The translations under genes and the position numbers were made by a program. Below the pieces are notes generated by a model. That model was not told where the DNA came from. It ran no database searches and saw nothing but the letters and a program-made list of their open reading frames with translations. A stretch of 34,966 nt of DNA from a virus, in IMG/VR virus record IMGVR_UViG_3300007542_000081, positions 1 to 34,966 of that record; one strand, written 5' to 3'. Positions 1,828 to 34,966 of the stretch are shown piece by piece (positions within the stretch are counted from its first letter, which is position 1; every line of letters starts with the position of its first letter).

Positions 1828-4800
1828 ATGGCTAAAAAGAAAAATAATCAAGGTAGGGAAAGCTTCGAAGCGTTTGCTGGGGATGAGAGTTTAAATATAG
1901 CAAACAGAGGAGCAGAGAAGAGTTTAAGAAAAAAAGCACAAGAATTTCTTGGAAATCCGAAAGGCGATAATGAGAAACAGAGACCACCAGCACGGAGCGC
2001 AGCACCTATGGCTGGTTCGGAAACGGCCATAGAAGCTTTCAAATTTCTAGAATGTGACCCGCTTATCCCAGGAGAAGAACCAGAACCTTGTCCGATTTGT
2101 CAAGAAAACCCATTTGCTTATGTCCCTGATTTTACCTTGATGGAAAATGGTGAAGTTTTCTTTGATGGAAAAAGGTGTTTACAAAGTATCGTTTTGACCG
2201 TCCCTTCACCAATATTAGAAGGACCAGATTATACAGAATTAAATAATCCAGCTTATATTCTTTCGAAAAAGGCAGAAGGTATTCGTTTAATTTTAGATTA
2301 TTATAATAAATCTGACATAGCAACTGTTTATTATTATGTTGAAAATGATAGTAAAGAGGGAGCAGGAGATACAATAGCTCAAGTGATAGGTGGACCTGCC
2401 GGCGAACAGGCCGTTGCACTATCCGCATTTATCCCAGTTATCCCAAACCCAATTCCAGGATATCAATTAGTTTCTGAGGAGAGAAATGTAGTTGAAGAAC
2501 TCCTACAATATACAGAATACGAATTTAGAATTCCAATTCAACAAAAAGCACAATCAAGAATTTTAATTTCAATACCCGTAGAATATTTAGACCGTTGCCC
2601 CGATAAAGCAATAACAGAACCAAAAACAATCTTTCAAACAGATTTGGAAGTTACAATTAATGGCGATGACTTTAAGCCATTCTTTCGAAGAGTCAATAAG
2701 GCATTTAGATTTTATCACAAACAACTACAACGTTGGTCTACTTTAGAAGGTGGAAAATTAGTAGAATTAACTGATAATGGTGAGCCAGGACCATCTGTAT
2801 TTCTTAATTTAGATACAGAGGCCAATTTAATTGATACATTCCAAAATACAATAGAGAATTTTATAGAAGATATAGGCTTATCGGTAGATCAATTTAAACC
2901 AGCAAAATTAATAGAAAAAATAGTTTTAAAATTTGAACCAAAAGAAGATGCTAAACAAGGGATAAAATTAAAAGAGATTATTTTAAATAAACCTGGTTGT
3001 CCAGATATTGTTTTTAATGAGGTAAATGCTGATACAAGAGCAAAATTTATTCAACTCTTAAAACAAGCACCTATGGGCGAAAGTAGAACACTTTATTATA
3101 TTGGTGCTTTACCAGAAATGGATATTGATTTAACTGCTTTAACTCCTGTACCATGGCTTGAATTTATAACAAAATATACTTGGCCAGGTTTACAAGTTTT
3201 TTATGGTGATAATTCAAATTCTATGTTGAATGATCCAACAATGGCAGCGTGTCTAGCATCTAGTACTTTTAATACTGAATCTGACCAGACCGTAGATCAA
3301 TTTATGTCTTTTGTTTCTGATACTGCTTTGAGTTTACCAGATGCTATATTAGATAAGTTTTCACAAAATACTTGTTTAACTAGAGAAGATAGTTTTAAAA
3401 ATCCTTTTGAAGATTTTGATCCTATAGAAATAGCATTAGAAGAAGCAAAGAAAAGAATTGCTGGTGATAATCCTTATTTACAGGACTTTTTTGACAGATT
3501 AGAAGCTTCTTTGGCTATAACTGCCACACCACTTCCAAAAGAAATTAGAGGAACAGGGCTCAAAAAAGGATTACAAAACTTAATTTGGGAAGATTTTTTT
3601 GATCGCTTGAAATGGTGCGGTTGGATTTCATTAATGCTCAAGGCAGTTGAGTGTGTATCACAAAATCTTGGTGTTGAAGATGCACAAAAGGCATTGGTAG
3701 AAGCGTCTTTTAATGCTATGGAAACTGCTCACGTAGAACGTGTTTTAATAGGTTTACCACCTGAAGCACAACAAGCCGTTTTTGATTCTTTAGAAGAAGA
3801 ACTAAAAATATTACCTGCTCCTTGGGATCCTAGCTATATTCCGGCAATTCCTACAGGTTCAATGTCTAATACAGGTTCGGCAGCCGGACAGTCTTTATTT
3901 GGTACTTCTTATAGTTCTGAAACAGGACAATTTTCATTTGGTTCGCAGTCGAAAGGCTCTGGTGGTTCCTACGGCACAGCTTTAGGGAACGTACAAAAAG
4001 ATATTGTTGATGCCTATAGAAATGCCGCATTACAAGCTGTCGGCGCCGACGTTTTATTAGAACAGATTAATAAACTTCCTGGAGCACCGATAGTATCTAA
4101 TTTCATCAAGCATATTCCTTGTAAACCAGTTCCTCCAATAGCGTTTGATCCAAGATTAGATTCATTTTTAAATACATTAGCGTTAGATTTTAATTTAGAA
4201 GAATGTAAATTTACAACTGATATTACAACGCCAAAATTACTTAGGATTGGTATTGGTAATCCGTTAGATTTATTAGCAAAATTGGCTAAAATGGCATTGG
4301 AGGCGATTTTAGAAGCAGCATTGGCTATTGTTGTTAAAGCAATAATTTTAATATTAGAAAAACTATTTTCTTTAGCATGTGATATTCTATCTACACTTGG
4401 GGCGAATTTATTAGATCTTATCGATGGAAGTGATAAATTTAAAGATCTTTTAAAAGAAAATATGTGTCCGGACGCAACGGACGAACAACTTTATGACAGC
4501 TTAAAAAACATATTTGCTTCTGTTGGCGGTCCAGAATCAGATTGTTTAAGAACTCTTGCTAATGATGAAATGGCTAAGTTTATACAAGATGTTTCTTTAA
4601 TGATGACACAAGGTCAATTAATACAATTATTAGAAGGAAATCCATCAAAAGAAACCCTACAACTTGCTAAAGAAGTAGCTGCTGTATCAGATTCACAATG
4701 TATTCGCGATGTTTTTGGAGACGGAACAGCATTTAATAATCTTTTTCCAGCAGTTGCAAAGCTTATTCCCAATCTACAAGAAATAAAAGATAATTTAGGA

Positions 4801-7800
4801 AGCTTTGATTTAAATCGTCCAATCTACCCATGCCCTCCTGAAGCAAAGAATAGAATAAACGAAATCAAGTGTAATCTACTACAAGAAAAAGGTTTATCAC
4901 CTGAACAATGTAGAGAAGAACTAGCAAAATCTAGAGAACAAGCACTTTCAGATTTAAATGATTTATTAAATAATTTACAGAACGGTCCTCTAGCTAATTT
5001 CCCGCCTTTGGTTGGAGAACCAGGGGAATGCGCTAATGACGGATTTTTCCCGGCTATTGATCCTATGCAGGCTGATTTATCTGCTAGTATAACGGAAAGC
5101 TTATTCCAAAAGATAGAAATAAAACATTTAAATGATTTATTAGATAATATAAATCCCTTTACTGGACAGGCTGGTGTTTTAAATATGATCCTTTCTGATA
5201 CGAAAGGTAGGTCTTTAAAAAGGCACAATACTTGGGTGCGTTTCTTCGGGTCTCCATTAGCAAATGAATTAGGTTTTTTTGAAAGTTGGTCCGATGATGC
5301 TATTCGTAAACCAACCGGAGATGGACCAGTACCAGAAAATGATAATGTTCCTATTAATATTTATGGTGAAGAATTAAGTGGTGATTTAGGAGGAAAACAA
5401 ACCATTTTTGGTTATTCAGAAGGCGGATTTCCTCCAACAGTCGGTGCTTGGATGGCAAAACAATTAAGAGAACTCAACCCAGAATTCAAAACAATTATAA
5501 CACCGGAAGGGTTTGCAACTCTTGGAGATGCTAAAAATGCTTATAATACTATTGATTTAATCAATAAAAGCAGAATAGCAAATCGTTCGCGATATGTAGA
5601 AGGATTTATAAATGAATTTGAATTAACAAATAATCCTTCCATGTTAGGTATGGTTCAAAATATTCGAGTCGCATTATCTGGTTCAGATTTGTTTATCAAA
5701 AGTGAAGATCCAAAAAAACAACCAGATTCAATCTCAAAAGATAGTGCGCAAGAAATAGTGAGAAATATTTTAAACGGTGAAAAAGTTAAAATAAACGGTG
5801 AAACAATAGCAAATGCTAGCGAGAATACTCCTTCTAAATGGTCGACTTTTAATAAAGCATTCGTAGAAACAGAAGGAGAAATATTCACAACTTTCTATAA
5901 TGCACGAGAAGAATATGATTTAGTAACATATCCAGATACTTCTTCGGCAGATATAAGATTGAAATATAATTCATATCCGGAAAATAGTGGAGATGAAAGT
6001 GCTTTGCCGGGCTGGGAATATGAAATTCAATTAGATTATAACATGACTGATGATGAAGGAAATATTATACCAACAAACGAATACAATTTAAAAATTGTTG
6101 AAACTTCTCGTCCTTCTGGGGCGGGAGGTGCAGAAGCAAGAAAAGAAAGAAGAAAACTAGAGAAATCAGGTGAATTACCTCCAGATTCTATTTTAGAAGA
6201 AGGAGAATATGTTTTTACAAAACACGACATAACAACAAAAAACATTATTGATGGACAAATTGAAAAATATATTTCTTCATTAGAAATAAGTGATGTGGTA
6301 AAAGATTCTTATCAAATAGAAACATTTTATAGATTTTTAGCAAATCGTATTTTAGAAGCAACAGACGATCAAAAATTTGTAAAATTAGAGATATTACAAC
6401 CAGAATTTAGAGATTATTTTGCTAAAGGTTCTGGTGGGAAAGACCGTCTATACGATAGAATATCGAATGCATTTATTAAAAGAATTTCTACAGTTGTTTC
6501 CACCGGTAAAGTAGATTATACTTTGCAAGAGGAACCAGAAGTAGAAAATGAACCAGGATTTTTAGAACCTGAAATACCAGATACTACAGTTGAACCAGAG
6601 CTTTCTAATACAGAAGAGAAGATTGCCGATGGTATTGATCTAGATGCAATTTCACCAGCATTCCATTTTGGTTATGACCCATATAAAGAACCAGAAATTA
6701 TATTCCTTGATAACGAAACTTATGGTGGTTTATTAGGTAGATTATTCCCTGATAAGGTACCTCCACCTTTTTATGTCGGAGAACCAAAATATACTGGATG
6801 GATGGATATTATGAATATTCTCGTACCAGAAGTTAATGGTTGTGAACCCGCAAGTAAACAAATTTTTAATCTTGAAGATTTGATACAAAAAGCATCTGAT
6901 TTAGCAAATCAACTCTTGCCAGATGAAAGATTGAATTATGATGTATTTTGTTCTCAAGAAGCTCCATTTGATAAAATAATGAATACTGCCGATGCAGCAG
7001 ATTTAGATAGTGCAATTAGAGCAATCATCCGCATCTATTTGGTAGATGTGTTTATCAGAGGAATTCCATCTTTTACAATATTCGCATTAAATTCAGATAA
7101 TTTTGGTGGCGTTTTAGAATCATTTATGGCCGATAGAATAAAGCAAGGTCTTTATGACGACGGCGCCGCTCGTTCTGGAAGAACAGATGATATGTATTAT
7201 TATAAAGTTCTAGAACAATGTGTAAATACTATTGCAAGGAAAATTAAATCAGGTATTCTTACATTTGAAGAATTAAACAGTGAAGAAAGAGAAGCATTTA
7301 CAATAATAGAACAGAAAGTATTAGAGTTCTATAATTTGAATGACGGTGCTTTAGGTGCTCTTTCTACAGCAGCTATTAAAAGTCAATCTATGTTCCGTAG
7401 AACTTTTTCTACTACTGCTGCTTCTGAATATGTTGGGTTAGGAGCAGGTAGTACACAATTTAGTAAAACTGCTGCCAAGAAAGCAAAAGAAATAGAATTT
7501 ATATCAATGTTAGAAGAAACAGAACAATATGCAAATGTTCTATTCAAAAGATATATTCGTGAAGAATTTGAAGCAGTTTCTGAACTTTTTAATGGTAAAT
7601 TACAATCTTCTGTTTCGAATATTCATCATCTTTTCTTATTAAACGATACATGGATACGCGGAGGAGTTTTCGGAGGCGGTCCTTTCGATGTAATGTCAAA
7701 CCCAAATGATTCTACAACCTACAACATCACAACTGGTGTTTCTACAAGTGTACAGAGTGCATTTGATAAACTAGGCGAAATTGGTGACTTATTGGGGCAA

Positions 7801-8871
7801 GCAGTCTCAGAACAATTAGACGAATGGCCTTTTGTTCTTGAAAAATACATCATGGTAGAAGATAAATTTGTTCAACCATCCGAAGTACAAAGAAAAGAAA
7901 ATTTATATAATATTATCAATATAAATGATTGGAAAGAGTATATAGATGAATTAAAATCTGACGGTTTAGAAGGATTTATTTCTGATTTTTGGGGTAATCC
8001 TGAAATAACTGGAGAGACATTATTAGAACAAGAACACACACATGAATACAGAATAGACGAAGAAGGTAATGGTAGAGCTTTTGAATATTGCGGAGTAAGC
8101 GGACAATGCCATTATCATCGTATTATAAATGGTGTAATACAGGAAGCTGAAGGTGATAATGGACTACACACACATGAGATGGATATAATCGGTTGGAAAT
8201 TTGGTTTAAGAATTTGTTATGTTCCAGAAAAGGATAAAAATAACATTTTCTCTTCGATGATTGATACAATTGGTAATGAAACAATAATGCTACAAAAGGC
8301 TTATAAGTTAGCAAACCCAGAAGGAGGAGAGACTTATATGATTCCATTAGCCTCTGTTGAATTACCAATACCAGACCAAGATTTTACCTTATTTGAACCT
8401 GATAGTTATGATGTATTCTGTTTAATCCAAGAACTAATTAAAACACCAGAATACAAAACTATGTTTAAATATGTTTTCCCACTTTCTACTTATAACTCTA
8501 TGATTGCTTTATATACTATTATGGGATTTTTTGATTCAATTGGTAATAGTGGATATCCCAATGACGGAGGAGATATGTGGGAAGTTCCTGGCGGAAGAAG
8601 AGGAAAAGGCTTTAGAAAATGGGTAAGGGGTCCGGGAACATTTAAAGCAACGCGGAGAGTAGCAAGAAATATTTTCTTAAACCTCTATGACGCTACTCAA
8701 GATGTAGATTTTAGTGGAGACAGTTTAGATAATAATGAAGATACTAATCCGGTAGACAATATTCGTTCATTATTGCGACCAAAGGTAAACTTTGAAGATG
8801 GTCTGCGTTGGTGGCAAAGAGGAAGAAGAATAACACAAAAACCATTTAATCTAGATGGTGAAGAATGCTAA
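1828..8871 (+). CDS. Giant virion structural protein (2347 aa) with HxH metal cluster, probable baseplate component
   Basis: The start is preceded by AGGA at 1813-1816, 3 bases after the upstream stop. Four cysteines near the N-terminus (C76, C88, C91, C117, including CPIC) could form a zinc site. Residues ~650-700 are Gly/Ser-rich. Residues ~813-857 form a long hydrophobic, Ala/Ile/Leu-rich helix-like stretch (...AIVVKAIILILEKLF...). Residues 2070-2116 hold three HxH motifs (HTH 2070-2072, HYH 2095-2097, HTH 2114-2116) with C2088 and C2094 between them. HxH motifs bind iron or zinc at the tips of phage spikes and in T4 gp12. The remainder is acidic and without recognised enzymatic motifs. 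The gene lies between the spike and gp25 genes, so a baseplate or tail-tip role is inferred from position. No function can be assigned from sequence alone, and the length far exceeds any T4 baseplate protein. Confidence 0.6.
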   Translation: MAKKKNNQGRESFEAFAGDESLNIANRGAEKSLRKKAQEFLGNPKGDNEKQRPPARSAAPMAGSETAIEAFKFLECDPLIPGEEPEPCPICQENPFAYVPDFTLMENGEVFFDGKRCLQSIVLTVPSPILEGPDYTELNNPAYILSKKAEGIRLILDYYNKSDIATVYYYVENDSKEGAGDTIAQVIGGPAGEQAVALSAFIPVIPNPIPGYQLVSEERNVVEELLQYTEYEFRIPIQQKAQSRILISIPVEYLDRCPDKAITEPKTIFQTDLEVTINGDDFKPFFRRVNKAFRFYHKQLQRWSTLEGGKLVELTDNGEPGPSVFLNLDTEANLIDTFQNTIENFIEDIGLSVDQFKPAKLIEKIVLKFEPKEDAKQGIKLKEIILNKPGCPDIVFNEVNADTRAKFIQLLKQAPMGESRTLYYIGALPEMDIDLTALTPVPWLEFITKYTWPGLQVFYGDNSNSMLNDPTMAACLASSTFNTESDQTVDQFMSFVSDTALSLPDAILDKFSQNTCLTREDSFKNPFEDFDPIEIALEEAKKRIAGDNPYLQDFFDRLEASLAITATPLPKEIRGTGLKKGLQNLIWEDFFDRLKWCGWISLMLKAVECVSQNLGVEDAQKALVEASFNAMETAHVERVLIGLPPEAQQAVFDSLEEELKILPAPWDPSYIPAIPTGSMSNTGSAAGQSLFGTSYSSETGQFSFGSQSKGSGGSYGTALGNVQKDIVDAYRNAALQAVGADVLLEQINKLPGAPIVSNFIKHIPCKPVPPIAFDPRLDSFLNTLALDFNLEECKFTTDITTPKLLRIGIGNPLDLLAKLAKMALEAILEAALAIVVKAIILILEKLFSLACDILSTLGANLLDLIDGSDKFKDLLKENMCPDATDEQLYDSLKNIFASVGGPESDCLRTLANDEMAKFIQDVSLMMTQGQLIQLLEGNPSKETLQLAKEVAAVSDSQCIRDVFGDGTAFNNLFPAVAKLIPNLQEIKDNLGSFDLNRPIYPCPPEAKNRINEIKCNLLQEKGLSPEQCREELAKSREQALSDLNDLLNNLQNGPLANFPPLVGEPGECANDGFFPAIDPMQADLSASITESLFQKIEIKHLNDLLDNINPFTGQAGVLNMILSDTKGRSLKRHNTWVRFFGSPLANELGFFESWSDDAIRKPTGDGPVPENDNVPINIYGEELSGDLGGKQTIFGYSEGGFPPTVGAWMAKQLRELNPEFKTIITPEGFATLGDAKNAYNTIDLINKSRIANRSRYVEGFINEFELTNNPSMLGMVQNIRVALSGSDLFIKSEDPKKQPDSISKDSAQEIVRNILNGEKVKINGETIANASENTPSKWSTFNKAFVETEGEIFTTFYNAREEYDLVTYPDTSSADIRLKYNSYPENSGDESALPGWEYEIQLDYNMTDDEGNIIPTNEYNLKIVETSRPSGAGGAEARKERRKLEKSGELPPDSILEEGEYVFTKHDITTKNIIDGQIEKYISSLEISDVVKDSYQIETFYRFLANRILEATDDQKFVKLEILQPEFRDYFAKGSGGKDRLYDRISNAFIKRISTVVSTGKVDYTLQEEPEVENEPGFLEPEIPDTTVEPELSNTEEKIADGIDLDAISPAFHFGYDPYKEPEIIFLDNETYGGLLGRLFPDKVPPPFYVGEPKYTGWMDIMNILVPEVNGCEPASKQIFNLEDLIQKASDLANQLLPDERLNYDVFCSQEAPFDKIMNTADAADLDSAIRAIIRIYLVDVFIRGIPSFTIFALNSDNFGGVLESFMADRIKQGLYDDGAARSGRTDDMYYYKVLEQCVNTIARKIKSGILTFEELNSEEREAFTIIEQKVLEFYNLNDGALGALSTAAIKSQSMFRRTFSTTAASEYVGLGAGSTQFSKTAAKKAKEIEFISMLEETEQYANVLFKRYIREEFEAVSELFNGKLQSSVSNIHHLFLLNDTWIRGGVFGGGPFDVMSNPNDSTTYNITTGVSTSVQSAFDKLGEIGDLLGQAVSEQLDEWPFVLEKYIMVEDKFVQPSEVQRKENLYNIININDWKEYIDELKSDGLEGFISDFWGNPEITGETLLEQEHTHEYRIDEEGNGRAFEYCGVSGQCHYHRIINGVIQEAEGDNGLHTHEMDIIGWKFGLRICYVPEKDKNNIFSSMIDTIGNETIMLQKAYKLANPEGGETYMIPLASVELPIPDQDFTLFEPDSYDVFCLIQELIKTPEYKTMFKYVFPLSTYNSMIALYTIMGFFDSIGNSGYPNDGGDMWEVPGGRRGKGFRKWVRGPGTFKATRRVARNIFLNLYDATQDVDFSGDSLDNNEDTNPVDNIRSLLRPKVNFEDGLRWWQRGRRITQKPFNLDGEEC

Positions 8872-12620: not shown

Positions 12621-15600
12621 TGAGTATTAAAAAACTTTTTGATTCAAATAAACCTCAAAATGTTATTATAAATACAAGTTTAGAAGAAGAAATTGTAAAG
12701 AAAGCACCGGAACTTGAATCAGCGGATAATGTTAGACAACAAATTAAAAGAATAAACCGTTTTATTCCGCAAGTAGACTTTAGTGATCCAAATAATTTCG
12801 TTGTATACGGTTTAGCAAAATCTTATTATGAAGACTCAATGTCTCGTATCTGGAGAGAGTTTCCATATGATGGTTCAGAAGAAGAAATTACACGCTTCCA
12901 CAATGACTCAAATTATTTAGATCTTTATCTTTTTGATAAAAGATATCCTAGAACAACTGGATATGCTATTTTCTCTTCAAATGGCTGGGGGACAGCAGGA
13001 ACTCCAATACAAGGTTGGGGCTCTTCTTCAATTCCAGAATATATTTCTTTTTTTGGCGGCCCAAATACAGCCTCAAATGGAATGGAGGCTGGAACGCTAC
13101 ATACCAATTTTACAGGTTCTAATTATTACGATACAGATATCTACACAACTGATGGAACATTACCATTAGATAGAGTTGGAACCCGTGAATCAAACTTAAA
13201 ATTTGACCTATCAAACGGAATAACAACAGAATTCTGGTTAAAGAAAGATTCTTGGGTCTCTGCTTCTACTGAAAAAGAAGTTTTATTTGACCTTTGGAAT
13301 GGTGCAACAACATCTTCTGCTGATTATGGTCGTTTTCTACTTTATATGACTGCTTCTACTGACGGTAGTGAACCATTGAGACTGCATATGGGTTCTGGCT
13401 CAGTAGCAGTTGATTTGGAATTAGCATCAAGTGATATTACAACCGGTTCGATAGCAGACGGTTTATGGCACCATTACGCAGTTACAGTTTTATCTGGTTC
13501 TGGTGGTTTAACTACCAAAATGTATATTGATGGAACTTTAAACAAAACACAAACATCTGCCGTAAATTTTGGAGAAGTAACAGGTTCTCTGATAGGTTTT
13601 ATGGGAGCCCTTCAAACTTCTCCTTCTGGTAGTGTTTATGACGGCGAAGTCATGGTTGGCTATGCTAAATTAACCGGTTCAATTGATGAATTCCGTTATT
13701 GGAAATCAAAACGAGACGAAAAAGATATCCAATATAATTGGTGGACACAAGTTCGTGGTGGAACAAATGAAAAGATTTCAAACGCAGAACTAGGTGTTTA
13801 TTATAAATTCAATGAAGGAATTACAGGTACTTCTTCAGTAGATTCTATAGTATTAGATTATTCAGGTAGAATTACAAATGGTACTTGGGTAGGATATCCA
13901 GGTTCTTCGGCTAGAAGCACAGGTTCGGCTATAAATTCTTCAACCATGGTCGTATCCGGAACAACTGAATATCAAGACCCTATTATTTATTCTTTCCATC
14001 CAGATGTTCTATCATTATATGACGAATTATCAACATCAGGTAGTGTATATGATGATGAAAATAATGCCTCTATTTTAGATTCAATTCCAGCATGGATTAT
14101 AGAAGAGGACGAATATAAAGGTACTAAACAACTTAAAAATCTAACTCAAATAATTGGTTCTTATTTTGATTCCTTAAACTCCAAGATAAAGGTTTTACCT
14201 GAATTAGCTGAACTATCTTATGTTTCTGCTAGCGCAAAACCTACACCATTTAATAGAAATTTATTAAGTGCTCGTGGTTTGGCTGTACCAGACATATTTG
14301 TTGATGCCGAATTATTAGAATATTTTGCTAATAGAAGACAAGATAGAAAATATGATATTGATATAACAGAGGTTAAAAACCTTATTTATAAAAATATTTA
14401 TAATAATTTAACTTATCTCTATAAAGCAAAAGGAACACAAAAAGCATTTCGAAATATTCTTCATTGTTATGGTATTGGAGAAGAAATAATCAAATTTAAT
14501 GCGTATGGTAATAATACGACTTTTACTTTTGAAGATACTGATTATGAAGCAGTAACAAGAAAAAATTATATAGATTTTAACAATACAGATAGATTTGATG
14601 GAATAGTATATCAAAATTCTTCTTCAGCAAACTTAACAAATACATCAGATGTAACTTATATCTCAGGAACTTCAGGTGTTTTTGCTAATACAGCAGAAAT
14701 AGAAGTTATTTTTCCAAAGAAGTTTGCTTTTGAAAATTCACAATATTTTGATACTCCATTTGTAACAGCATCTATTTTTGGCCATCACGCCGCCGCCGCT
14801 GATCCAACAAATTTTGGTTTTGTTTCAACTGCAAACGATAAAAACTTTCAACTTTATTTTGTGAAAACAGAGAAAAATTCCAAAGATGGTTACTTCTTAC
14901 TAAAAGATAGAGCAGGAAACTTTGAACTTACCAGTTCAGTTTATAGTAATGTTTATGATAACCAAAAGTGGAATTTTGGTATTAAAATAAAAGATAAATT
15001 CTGGCCTTATTCCTCTGGAATTACTGGTTCTAATGTTAATAACGATTTAGAATTAGAATGGTATGGTGTGAATGTCGAATTGGGAGTAATAAAAAATGAA
15101 TTTACTCTAACAGCCAGTAGTTTAGATAATAGTTATTTGTCTAATCGTAGAAGATATTATGCCGGCTCCGATAGAACAAATTATACTGGCTCTGTTATTA
15201 CACAAACAGATGTACGAGTCACGTCTGTAAGACATTGGGCGACATATCTGGAAAATAGTGTAATTGTCGAACATGCAAAAGACCCAGACAATATTGGTAC
15301 CTTAAATCCATCTAAAAATGCTATTTTTGCTGTTGATGTTGGAGCATATGGAATAGATAATGTTTATTTCCCACAAGCAGCTACATTAGCATTAAATTGG
15401 GACTTCTCACAAATAACCGGTTCAGATTCGAATGGTGAATTTACTGTTGAAGATGCTTCTTCTGGTTCAGTAGAATTAAGAACAAGATATCCCAATACCG
15501 CTTATTTAAGTAACATTGTAGCGAATCAATACGCTGGTAGAGGATATTTCCCAAATGCGGTTTCTTCTATTTCAGTAGTTAATAAAGATTATATTGCGGT

Positions 15601-33048: not shown

Positions 33049-33984
33049 ATGATAGAAGAAAAAGAAAAAATCATAAAATCTGTTTTAGGTTCTCATTATT
33101 ACTCTGGTAAAGAAATTCTATTTTATTGTCCGTTTTGTGATGATAAAAAAAAGAAATTATCTATTAATATTCAAAAAGGTTGCTGGAAGTGTTGGAGGGC
33201 CGAGTGTGGAAAGTCCGGCAATAATTTAGGTTATATTGTTAATAAATTTGGAAATGAAAAAGATAAAAAAGATTGGTCCAAATTTAATGATAAAGTAGAT
33301 ATTGGAGACTATGATTTTCTTTTTATACAACCAGAAGTAATAGCAGAACAAAGAGTATCTTTACCAGACGACTTTATTTCTTTGGTTAATAAAAATTTAC
33401 CAGATAGTCATAAACCAGCATTAAAATATCTCCATGAAAGAGGAATAACAAGGAAAGATATTCTAAAATGGAAAATAGGATATTGTGATAAAGGAGAATT
33501 TGCTGAAAGAATCATTATTCCTTCTTTTAATGAAAATGGGTGGATTAATTATTATGTTGCTCGTTCTTATAACTCTGGTTGGCCAAGATATAAGAATCCA
33601 CCTATTAGTAGAAATATTATTTTTAACGAACTTTATTTAAAATGGGACGAGGAAATAATATTAGTAGAGGGTGTGTTTGATGCTATAAAGGCTGGAAACG
33701 CCATTCCTCTTCTTGGTTCGACTCTTCGCGATAGTTCAGTTATTTTTGAAACACTAGTTAAAAATCAAGCAAAAGTTCTTCTTGCTCTCGATTCGGACGC
33801 GCAAAAGAAAAGTAAAGCAATTAGCCGTTTATTGTCTTTTTATGGCATAGAGAATTATAGTATAGATACCAATGGTTATGAAGATGTGGCAATAATGTCA
33901 AGGAGCGAGTTTAAAATAAGAAAAGAAGACGCGTCGTTAAATGAAAAAGATAACTATTTATTAGAAAAATTACTTTCTATTTAA
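33049..33984 (+). CDS. DNA primase, zinc-finger plus Toprim (T4 gp61 / DnaG type)
   Basis: A 311-residue protein, near the length of T4 gp61 (about 342). The N-terminal zinc ribbon has FYCPFC (C27, C30) and GCWKCWRAEC (C45, C48; C53 nearby). The RNA polymerase core continues through HERGITRKDILKWKIGYC (about 129-146). The Toprim domain has ILVEGVFDAIKAG (E207) and LLALDSDAQKKSK (D248, D250), the expected metal-binding acidic residues. It would make RNA primers for lagging-strand synthesis with a separate helicase, since no helicase domain is attached. An in-frame TGA directly precedes the ATG, fixing the start; the Shine-Dalgarno sequence is weak (GGTG at 33041). A sigma70-like promoter lies just upstream. 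Confidence 0.9.
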   Translation: MIEEKEKIIKSVLGSHYYSGKEILFYCPFCDDKKKKLSINIQKGCWKCWRAECGKSGNNLGYIVNKFGNEKDKKDWSKFNDKVDIGDYDFLFIQPEVIAEQRVSLPDDFISLVNKNLPDSHKPALKYLHERGITRKDILKWKIGYCDKGEFAERIIIPSFNENGWINYYVARSYNSGWPRYKNPPISRNIIFNELYLKWDEEIILVEGVFDAIKAGNAIPLLGSTLRDSSVIFETLVKNQAKVLLALDSDAQKKSKAISRLLSFYGIENYSIDTNGYEDVAIMSRSEFKIRKEDASLNEKDNYLLEKLLSI

Positions 33985-34005: not shown

Positions 34006-34548
34006 ATGAAGATAACAAGGGCACAGCTTAAAAAGATCATTAAAGAAGAATTATCATTATTAAATGAAAATTATAATATGAACGAAGAAGGCGATGACGT
34101 ACCCGAAATGAAAGAATATTCCGACGGCTCGAAGGAATGGCGGTTGAATGGTATTCTTCACCGAACCGACGGCCCGGCTGTTGAAAGGTCCGACGGCTCG
34201 AAGTTTTGGTGGTTGAAAGGTATTCTTCACCGAACCGACGGCCCGGCTATTGAATGGCCCAACGGCTCGAAGGTATGGTATTTGAATGGTGAGCTTCACC
34301 GAACCGACGGCCCGGCTGTTGAATATTCCAACGGCTCGAAGGTATGGCTTTTGAATGGCGAGTATCACCGAACCGACGGCCCGGCTGTTGAAAGGTCCGA
34401 CGGCACGAAGGAATGGTGGTTGAATGGTGAGCGTCACCGAACCGACGGCCCGGCTGTTGAATATTCCAACGGCAGGAAGGAATGGTGGTTAAATAATAAG
34501 AAAGTAACTTGGCGTAAAGTTTATGATAGCAAAAAAGGCAAACTATAG
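34006..34548 (+). CDS. HRTDGPA tandem-repeat (MORN-like) protein with possible capsid-targeting N-terminus
   Basis: A 180-residue protein with a strong AAGGAGA ribosome binding site upstream. The N-terminus MKITRAQLKKIIKEEL followed by SLLNE is a basic/acidic amphipathic helix ending in L-x-E. This resembles the short tags that T4 prohead protease removes from internal head proteins. An acidic linker follows (about 22-37). From residue 38 come five 23-residue repeats of the type (Y/R)S(D/N)GSK.WWLNG..HRTDGPA(V/I)E and a partial sixth ending in WWLNN, then a basic tail. Such W-LNG-HR-DGPA repeats are a MORN-like beta-hairpin type known in phages and large DNA viruses, with no settled function. 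The repeats are much richer in GC than the rest of the window, suggesting acquisition or recent expansion. Confidence 0.65.
   Translation: MKITRAQLKKIIKEELSLLNENYNMNEEGDDVPEMKEYSDGSKEWRLNGILHRTDGPAVERSDGSKFWWLKGILHRTDGPAIEWPNGSKVWYLNGELHRTDGPAVEYSNGSKVWLLNGEYHRTDGPAVERSDGTKEWWLNGERHRTDGPAVEYSNGRKEWWLNNKKVTWRKVYDSKKGKL
34117..34497 (+). repeat. 69-base in-frame tandem repeat, five full copies plus one partial
   Basis: Period 69 bases (23 codons). A 21-base core encoding HRTDGPA is identical in all five copies (starting at 34159, 34228, 34297, 34366 and 34435), including third codon positions; 16 of its 21 bases are G or C. Between cores the copies vary, mainly at the codons before HR and at the three codons after DGPA(V/I)E. 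The sixth copy (from 34462) stops before the core. Confidence 0.95.
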
Positions 34549-34709
34549 ATTCAATGTTCAAAACGGCGATGTCTAAACCGCTAAACGAATCTTGGGGAGT
34601 GAGGTCGCGGACAGGCTATAAGAATCCAGGCAACGAAAAAACAAGTACCTGCCTATGACCCAATGCGGTTGCCAGAGAATAAACTAAATTATTAGCTTGA
34701 CAGATGAAG
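34549..34709 (+). ncRNA. Candidate structured non-coding RNA / 3' leader between repeat gene and terminator
   Basis: About 160 bases without a convincing gene, more GC-rich than usual for this genome and closed by a strong terminator. Possible helices found by eye: AACCGC (34576-34581) with GCGGTT (34665-34670), enclosing TTGGG (34592-34596) with CCCAA (34659-34663), and AGGC (34613-34616) with GCCT (34651-34654). An alternative helix, GGCAAC (34629-34634) with GTTGCC (34668-34673), competes with the first. No match to tRNA, tmRNA, RNase P or a hammerhead core was seen. A 34-codon open frame (34554-34658) lies within it but lacks a ribosome binding site. It may be a processed 3' untranslated RNA, a small RNA or an unrecognised regulatory element. 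Confidence 0.3.
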
Positions 34710-34825: not shown

Positions 34826-34966
34826 ATGCGAATTTGTCATATAAGTGATACTCATATCCGAAACTATAAATATCATAAAGAATATGAGAATATTTTTGAA
34901 CAAATTTATTCTTGTTTGCGTGAACAAAAAGTTGATTTAATTGTACATTGTGGTGATATAGCTCAT
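34826..34966 (+). CDS. Metallophosphoesterase, SbcD/Mre11/gp47-like nuclease subunit, 3' end missing
   Basis: The first 47 codons of a gene that runs out of the window. A near-perfect ribosome binding site, AGGAGG (34813-34818), sits 7 bases before the ATG. The protein starts MRICHISDTHIRNY, where D8 and H10 form the first metal-binding motif (D-x-H) of calcineurin-like phosphoesterases. It reaches VDLIVHCGDIAH, where GD (G43, D44) is the second motif. This pattern fits the SbcD/Mre11 group. In phages the T4 gp47 homologue pairs with gp46 to process DNA ends for recombination-dependent replication, which agrees with the nearby primase and resolvase. The usual partner (SbcC/gp46) would be expected downstream. 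Other phosphoesterases of the same fold remain possible. Confidence 0.8.
   Translation, partial: MRICHISDTHIRNYKYHKEYENIFEQIYSCLREQKVDLIVHCGDIAH

Follow-up and report, generated by a model that had tools for sequence, protein, structure and literature searches.

Five copies of a 21-nucleotide, GC-rich core lie near the end of an AT-rich stretch of phage DNA and are identical at every base, and the question that this locus raises is whether the constancy belongs to the DNA or RNA itself, to the recent history of the array, or to the protein that it encodes. The window, by which we mean the whole stretch of 34,966 nucleotides analysed (positions 1 to 34,966 of IMG/VR record IMGVR_UViG_3300007542_000081), is phage DNA of 33% GC. 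Baseplate wedge, RuvC-like and primase genes are present in it, and it is therefore a myovirus fragment; among the cultured phages of the collection, Microcystis phage Mel-JY01 and the Flavobacterium immuto phages resemble it most, with approximately 33-34% identity for baseplate and primase. The features of the repeat gene and its neighbourhood are as follows.

34006-34548, plus strand: ORF of 180 amino acids, consisting of a leader, an N-cap, five 23-residue repeats predicted to be MORN-like, and an altered tail
34006-34071, plus strand: N-terminal leader MKITRAQLKKIIKEELSLLNEN, 22 residues, with a helix predicted at residues 5-24 and IKE at 12-14; a candidate propeptide for head targeting
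34099-34524, plus strand: imported cassette, matched by blastn to viral contigs L007 and L087; fusion junction near 34099
34138-34206, plus strand: repeat unit 1 WRLNGILHRTDGPAVERSDGSKF
34207-34275, plus strand: repeat unit 2 WWLKGILHRTDGPAIEWPNGSKV
34276-34344, plus strand: repeat unit 3 WYLNGELHRTDGPAVEYSNGSKV
34345-34413, plus strand: repeat unit 4 WLLNGEYHRTDGPAVERSDGTKE
34414-34482, plus strand: repeat unit 5 WWLNGERHRTDGPAVEYSNGRKE
34159-34179, plus strand: 21-nt core, copy 1; copies 2 to 5 begin at 34228, 34297, 34366 and 34435
34553-34591, plus strand: C-terminal coding remnant; blastn (E 2.8e-5) and an alignment show 82% identity with the tail of L007
34707-34740, plus strand: probable terminator of the transcription unit of ORF 34006-34548, an inverted repeat followed by a T-run
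33049-33984, plus strand: DNA primase, the upstream neighbour, which marks the insertion slot in relatives
34826-34966, plus strand: start of an SbcD/gp47-like nuclease, the downstream border of the slot, running off the window end

The name SbcD/gp47-like was given on sequence resemblance rather than by a family search, and a similar frame lies downstream of the primase in relatives. From the tail remnant to the terminator, approximately 115 nt (34592-34706) show no evident ORF and no Rfam match above threshold; the Rfam search returned sub-threshold matches only, mostly around the terminator.

The identity of the core, reported in a first-pass annotation of this DNA, was confirmed at all five positions: CACCGAACCGACGGCCCGGCT (16 of 21 bases G or C) is unchanged at 34159-34179, 34228-34248, 34297-34317, 34366-34386 and 34435-34455, always in frame and always encoding HRTDGPA. 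Tandem Repeats Finder (TRF) describes the array with a period of 69, 5.4 copies and a score of 470, far above any other array in the window. The accompanying picture of a constant core amid varying flanks holds for the core and for the variable codons, but the constancy extends to framework codons outside the core. The T just before it is the same in all five copies, the codons for W (TGG), L (TTG), E (GAA), G (GGC) and K (AAG) are likewise identical in five of five 69-nt units, and variation is concentrated in nine of the 23 codons.

Selection might act on the core as DNA or RNA, as had been proposed to account for its identity; the core could then be a recombination site, a protein-binding site or an RNA element, and its presence in five copies and in both L007 and L087 would suit such a role. 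This proposal is largely refuted. Silent divergence is about equally low in the core (pS 0.05) and in the framework (0.07; window and L007 units pooled), and in the closest relative, L007, the core itself carries silent changes (CAT once, GCC twice) along with one residue change. The commonest core string of a locus takes 36 different forms among 68 loci with at least four units each, and covers a median of only 36% of the units of its locus; exact matches to the core in public viral contigs are restricted to the near relatives L007 and L087, and folding of RNA from 34117-34497 is unremarkable (z -1.4). On codon data and RNA folding we reject this explanation, to which we give a negligible probability. 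In bacterial and archaeal genomes the core pattern gave three single matches, in unrelated organisms, and plasmids hold only distant relatives. The 21-nt core is not special as DNA, and its identity reflects the youth or homogenisation of the array together with constraint on the peptide HRTDGPA.

The alternative offered at first pass, very recent tandem expansion or gene conversion, is supported by framework pS values of 0.04 (window) and 0.08 (L007), compared with 0.80 between loci. Low silent divergence here is the mark of a young, homogenised array. Across 22 multigene loci, units of one gene differ in framework pS as much as units of sister genes do (0.34 and 0.33), again against 0.80 between loci, and homogenisation therefore acts on the full set of repeats in a genome and not gene by gene; that it takes place we hold with high confidence. 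Copy number varies between relatives, as had been anticipated, from 2 to 11 units per gene; the genes of these relatives form multigene arrays in phages, with 16 to 31 repeat matches in each of four repeat-rich phage records.

Base composition and similarity identify the repeat gene as a newcomer to its genome. ORF 34006-34548 has 47% GC and a GC3 of 0.52, against GC3 values of 0.12-0.25 for the other 15 main ORFs of the window, and positions 34099-34524 are 87-88% identical to the L007 repeat genes and 85-91% identical to a fragment of L087 (blastn). The L007 repeat genes (50-53% GC) border a stretch of 30% GC, and L087 as a whole is 34% GC, an AT-rich phage contig with the repeat cassette at its edge and with genes named from their sequences as GroEL-like (6952-8511) and ClpP-like (12715-13380). 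Every complete repeat gene of L007 has its own upstream promoter-like block of the TTGACC-17-TATATT type and a common C-terminal end. The block, CTAGCCGCTGGCC followed by TATATT, occurs in L007 at 113-137, 1682-1706, 2248-2272 and 3748-3772, before each repeat gene and before a MoxR-like ATPase gene; this exact pattern is found in no other viral contig.

The other side of the junction belongs to the recipient. The leader, MKITxxxLKxIIKEEL, is found in 25 of 25 primase-related phage records, with up to 12 matches each, and in none of five repeat-bearing phage records; among the 180 repeat ORFs collected, that of the window is the only one to carry it. Conversely, repeats are present in none of 19 relative phage records, three weak matches there being to the leader. 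Relatives matched through their primase have other small genes after it, with the SbcD-like nuclease next in several cases, and in an immuto phage an exonuclease lies directly 3' of the primase. The cassette is very probably a foreign, GC-rich import, brought by horizontal transfer into a variable slot between the primase and the SbcD-like nuclease, and there is little doubt that it was fused there to the phage group's own leader. A 39-nt remnant of the native C-terminal end persists at 34553-34591, placed beyond the stop codon by an insertion and a frame change, and the original end was therefore lost after import; with that end gone, the window gene might be on its way out. Three of these points were absent from the first-pass annotation: the foreign origin of the gene, its fusion to a phage-specific leader and the loss of its native C-terminus.

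The variable codons were also predicted at first pass to form a diversifying surface around the constant core. We chose the variable positions from 499 units of other loci and then applied them to the window; the nine most variable, counted with W as position 1, are 2, 6, 7, 15, 17, 18, 19, 21 and 23, and they carry nearly all of the replacement variation in the window units. For these nine the window has a pN/pS of 5.4 (bootstrap 2.5% bound 2.5), L007 one of 4.6 and the pooled units one of 5.1, all bootstrap lower bounds lying above 2.2; at the other 14 positions the ratio is 0.1-0.3, with a framework pN of 0.01. Over whole units the ratio is 3.2 in the window (bootstrap 1.3-24) and 2.3 pooled (0.97-6.7), and only 1.4 when each variant is counted once; given these wide intervals and the per-variant value, the claim is strongest for the nine positions. 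Nonredundant loci of five or more units have pN values of 0.23-0.53 at the variable positions over pS values from 0.06 to 0.79, and replacement diversity is therefore already high in the youngest arrays and stays there. Since the nine codons are the ones that vary family-wide, and pN/pS at them is about 5 in the window and L007, diversifying selection on the protein surface is well supported, and we consider it probable that these positions are being diversified.

A mechanism that directs mutations to the variable codons, of the kind found in diversity-generating retroelements, would account for variation in fixed codons within a constant frame, but it is a most improbable engine because PF00078 reverse transcriptase was found in none of 11 repeat-bearing records, which may be incomplete (three control genomes did match), and because 11 of 27 variable columns lack any A and so show no adenine restriction. 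A neutral account deserves somewhat more attention. It holds that the array is young by chance, that the variable codons are merely unconstrained and that the import has no function, and both the very low silent divergence of the window array and the lost C-terminal end would fit it. Relaxed constraint, however, predicts a pN/pS near 1 where about 5 is observed, unrelated loci vary at these nine positions too, around a nearly invariant framework, and large phages hold whole multigene arrays of these repeats. We regard neutral expansion as improbable, and retain diversifying selection on the encoded protein as the explanation of the pattern.

What kind of surface is diversified is suggested by the predicted fold. 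An AlphaFold2 model built on an alignment of 28 sequences has a mean pLDDT of 92.8; its best solved matches in Foldseek are MORN1 crystal structures (E 4e-6), and VIA-align gives a Z of about 8 to MORN1 and radial-spoke MORN proteins, a value modest on its own, with MORN proteins occupying most of the top rows and Foldseek in agreement. The window protein is accordingly predicted to be MORN-like, a single-layer beta-sheet of 23-residue hairpins. From strand alternation, which sets variable positions 23 and 2 opposite the conserved W1 and L3, rather than from measured geometry, we infer that the variable residues share one face of this sheet. At the sequence level, Pfam MORN and MORN_2 gave no match on the window protein, and MORN_2 scored 20.0 and 18.2 bits on two relatives against a cut-off of 29.6. 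PF20530 (DUF6745) matches 34099-34545 with 30.2 bits, above its cut-off of 27, but the match extends over only about 20 of 206 profile positions, with no single stretch significant, and therefore marks the repeat motif and not the whole domain. Sequence search of solved structures found nothing significant, and the Big Fantastic Virus Database (BFVD) lists proteins like it from uncultured Caudovirales and giant viruses. NCBIfam had no match for the window protein; a dioxygenase model matched by relatives scored far under its cut-off and was judged spurious. PADLOC returned nothing relevant, its single weak chance match being on a relative, and the literature yielded no paper on DUF6745 and none in which DGPAVE or IIKEEL appears as a repeat or leader motif.

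The leader offers a clue to where such a protein might act. It is seen in L091-L170, L178-L194 and the window (34006-34071), an uncultured myovirus group, often adjoining the prohead protease, and we found no description of it in the literature. Among 84 distinct leaders 80 start with Met, and the mature parts fall into 54 BLAST families, one leader thus standing on unrelated proteins. Of the 84 leaders, 74 have at residues 12-14 the motif [IL]xE, the form of the T4 cleavage motif, whose frequency in the rest of these proteins is 1.7%; the comparison is to be read with the fact that the HMM used to collect the leaders favours this motif. Tblastn of the bare leader against phages gave no match, a result that is uninformative because the query is too short. 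The T4-type prohead protease, Peptidase_S77 (PF03420), is encoded by 18 of 19 relative phages and none of 14 controls; this count concerns the relatives, the window being a fragment. Leader genes lie at most 1.5 kb from the protease in 7 of 18 cases (1.2 expected, p 1.5e-4), and further leader-like genes adjoin it by eye. Two such neighbours, L178 ORF 1956-2948 and L180 ORF 2321-2782 (reverse-complement coordinates), have a leader-like motif at both the N- and C-terminus, one of them a protein of 330 amino acids. In L178-L193 a recurrent ORF of approximately 140 amino acids, at or shortly after the protease, starts MKxxELKxILKPLIKECIxE, resembles the leader, and is possibly a prohead core protein. 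Among cultured phages, the genome of Flavobacterium phage immuto 3-5A (MW353176) contains ORFs with a leader-like start at 102836 and 113144.

In T4, N-terminal leaders of 10-20 residues target unrelated internal proteins to the head, gp21 cuts after Glu, and the proteins are injected, among them IPI, which inhibits a restriction enzyme (PMC9026906, PMC5694885). By analogy with that system we lean, by a small degree, towards head targeting as the role of the leader. The main competitor accepts the same imported, diversifying binder but takes the leader for an amphipathic oligomerisation or docking helix, the protein acting in the infected cell and never being packaged. The predicted helicity of the leader fits this well, and so do the occurrence of leader genes far from head genes, as in the primase slot, and the use of the repeats by other phages without any such leader; the [IL]xE motif, too, could be kept for helix packing. 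Against it stand the strictly N-terminal position, the frequency of [IL]xE combined with clustering beside the prohead protease, and the 330-residue protease neighbour with the motif at both ends, and we consider the docking helix unlikely, though the most serious of the alternatives. Two repeat-rich phages have the protease without the leader, and packaging of the wider repeat family is therefore not implied. No virion proteome was found for immuto phages or any leader-bearing phage.

A model that combines diversification with head targeting may be outlined as follows. Phages keep pools of units in tandem paralogous genes, where duplication, unequal crossing-over or gene conversion re-uses and homogenises units pool-wide, and diversity at the positions presumed to face the ligand is maintained by selection. 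The window phage, from a group whose other examined members lack the repeats, gained one cassette horizontally, which entered the variable slot between the primase and the SbcD-like nuclease and was fused to the leader of the group. The leader would carry the protein into the prohead, in the manner of the T4 capsid targeting sequence, and a T4-type protease would trim it after IKE-14; the repeat protein would then be packaged, injected with the DNA and bind a variable host target. We infer these later steps, and the whole reading, of an imported, diversifying MORN-like binder that is head-targeted by its leader and co-injected with the genome, seems to us evenly poised between right and wrong. 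That the ligand is a host defence or regulatory protein is a guess, and a rather doubtful one. More speculative again is the suggestion that in this uncultured myovirus group one short cleavable leader serves as a general loading tag for swappable cargo from more than 50 protein families, tag and hypervariable array together making an injected, retargetable inhibitor. The phage multigene arrays represent a natural library of binding surfaces, which makes the question of their targets testable, and the leader provides a sequence handle for predicting which uncharacterised phage proteins enter the virion and the host.

To our knowledge, homogenisation of units across sister genes together with diversification of fixed surface positions has been described mainly for antigen and immune-receptor systems. 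Diversity-generating retroelements resemble the phage repeats in having a fixed scaffold with variable codons, but no reverse transcriptase was found in the 11 repeat-bearing records and the variable columns show no adenine restriction. With MORN repeat proteins (MORN1, radial spoke RSPH1, junctophilin; Pfam MORN and MORN_2) they share 23-residue beta-hairpin repeats, a conserved aromatic residue and NG turns, whereas a core of HRxDGPA replaces the MORN signature, nine positions are hypervariable and the genes form phage multigene arrays. For DUF6745, the window protein and some relatives exceed the Pfam cut-off, but few profile positions are covered. Repeat proteins of giant viruses of protists (mimivirus R871, Powai lake megavirus, Harvfovirus) have a similar predicted fold and 25-46% identity; their hosts are eukaryotic, and the likeness is one of predicted fold and identity only. 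The T4 proteins IPI-IPIII and Alt, with their capsid targeting sequence, differ in that their leader is unlike in sequence and they are not repeat proteins, but they are alike in joining a short N-terminal leader to unrelated, variable proteins, with a Peptidase_S77 protease and a glutamate motif that in the window group is a candidate cleavage site.
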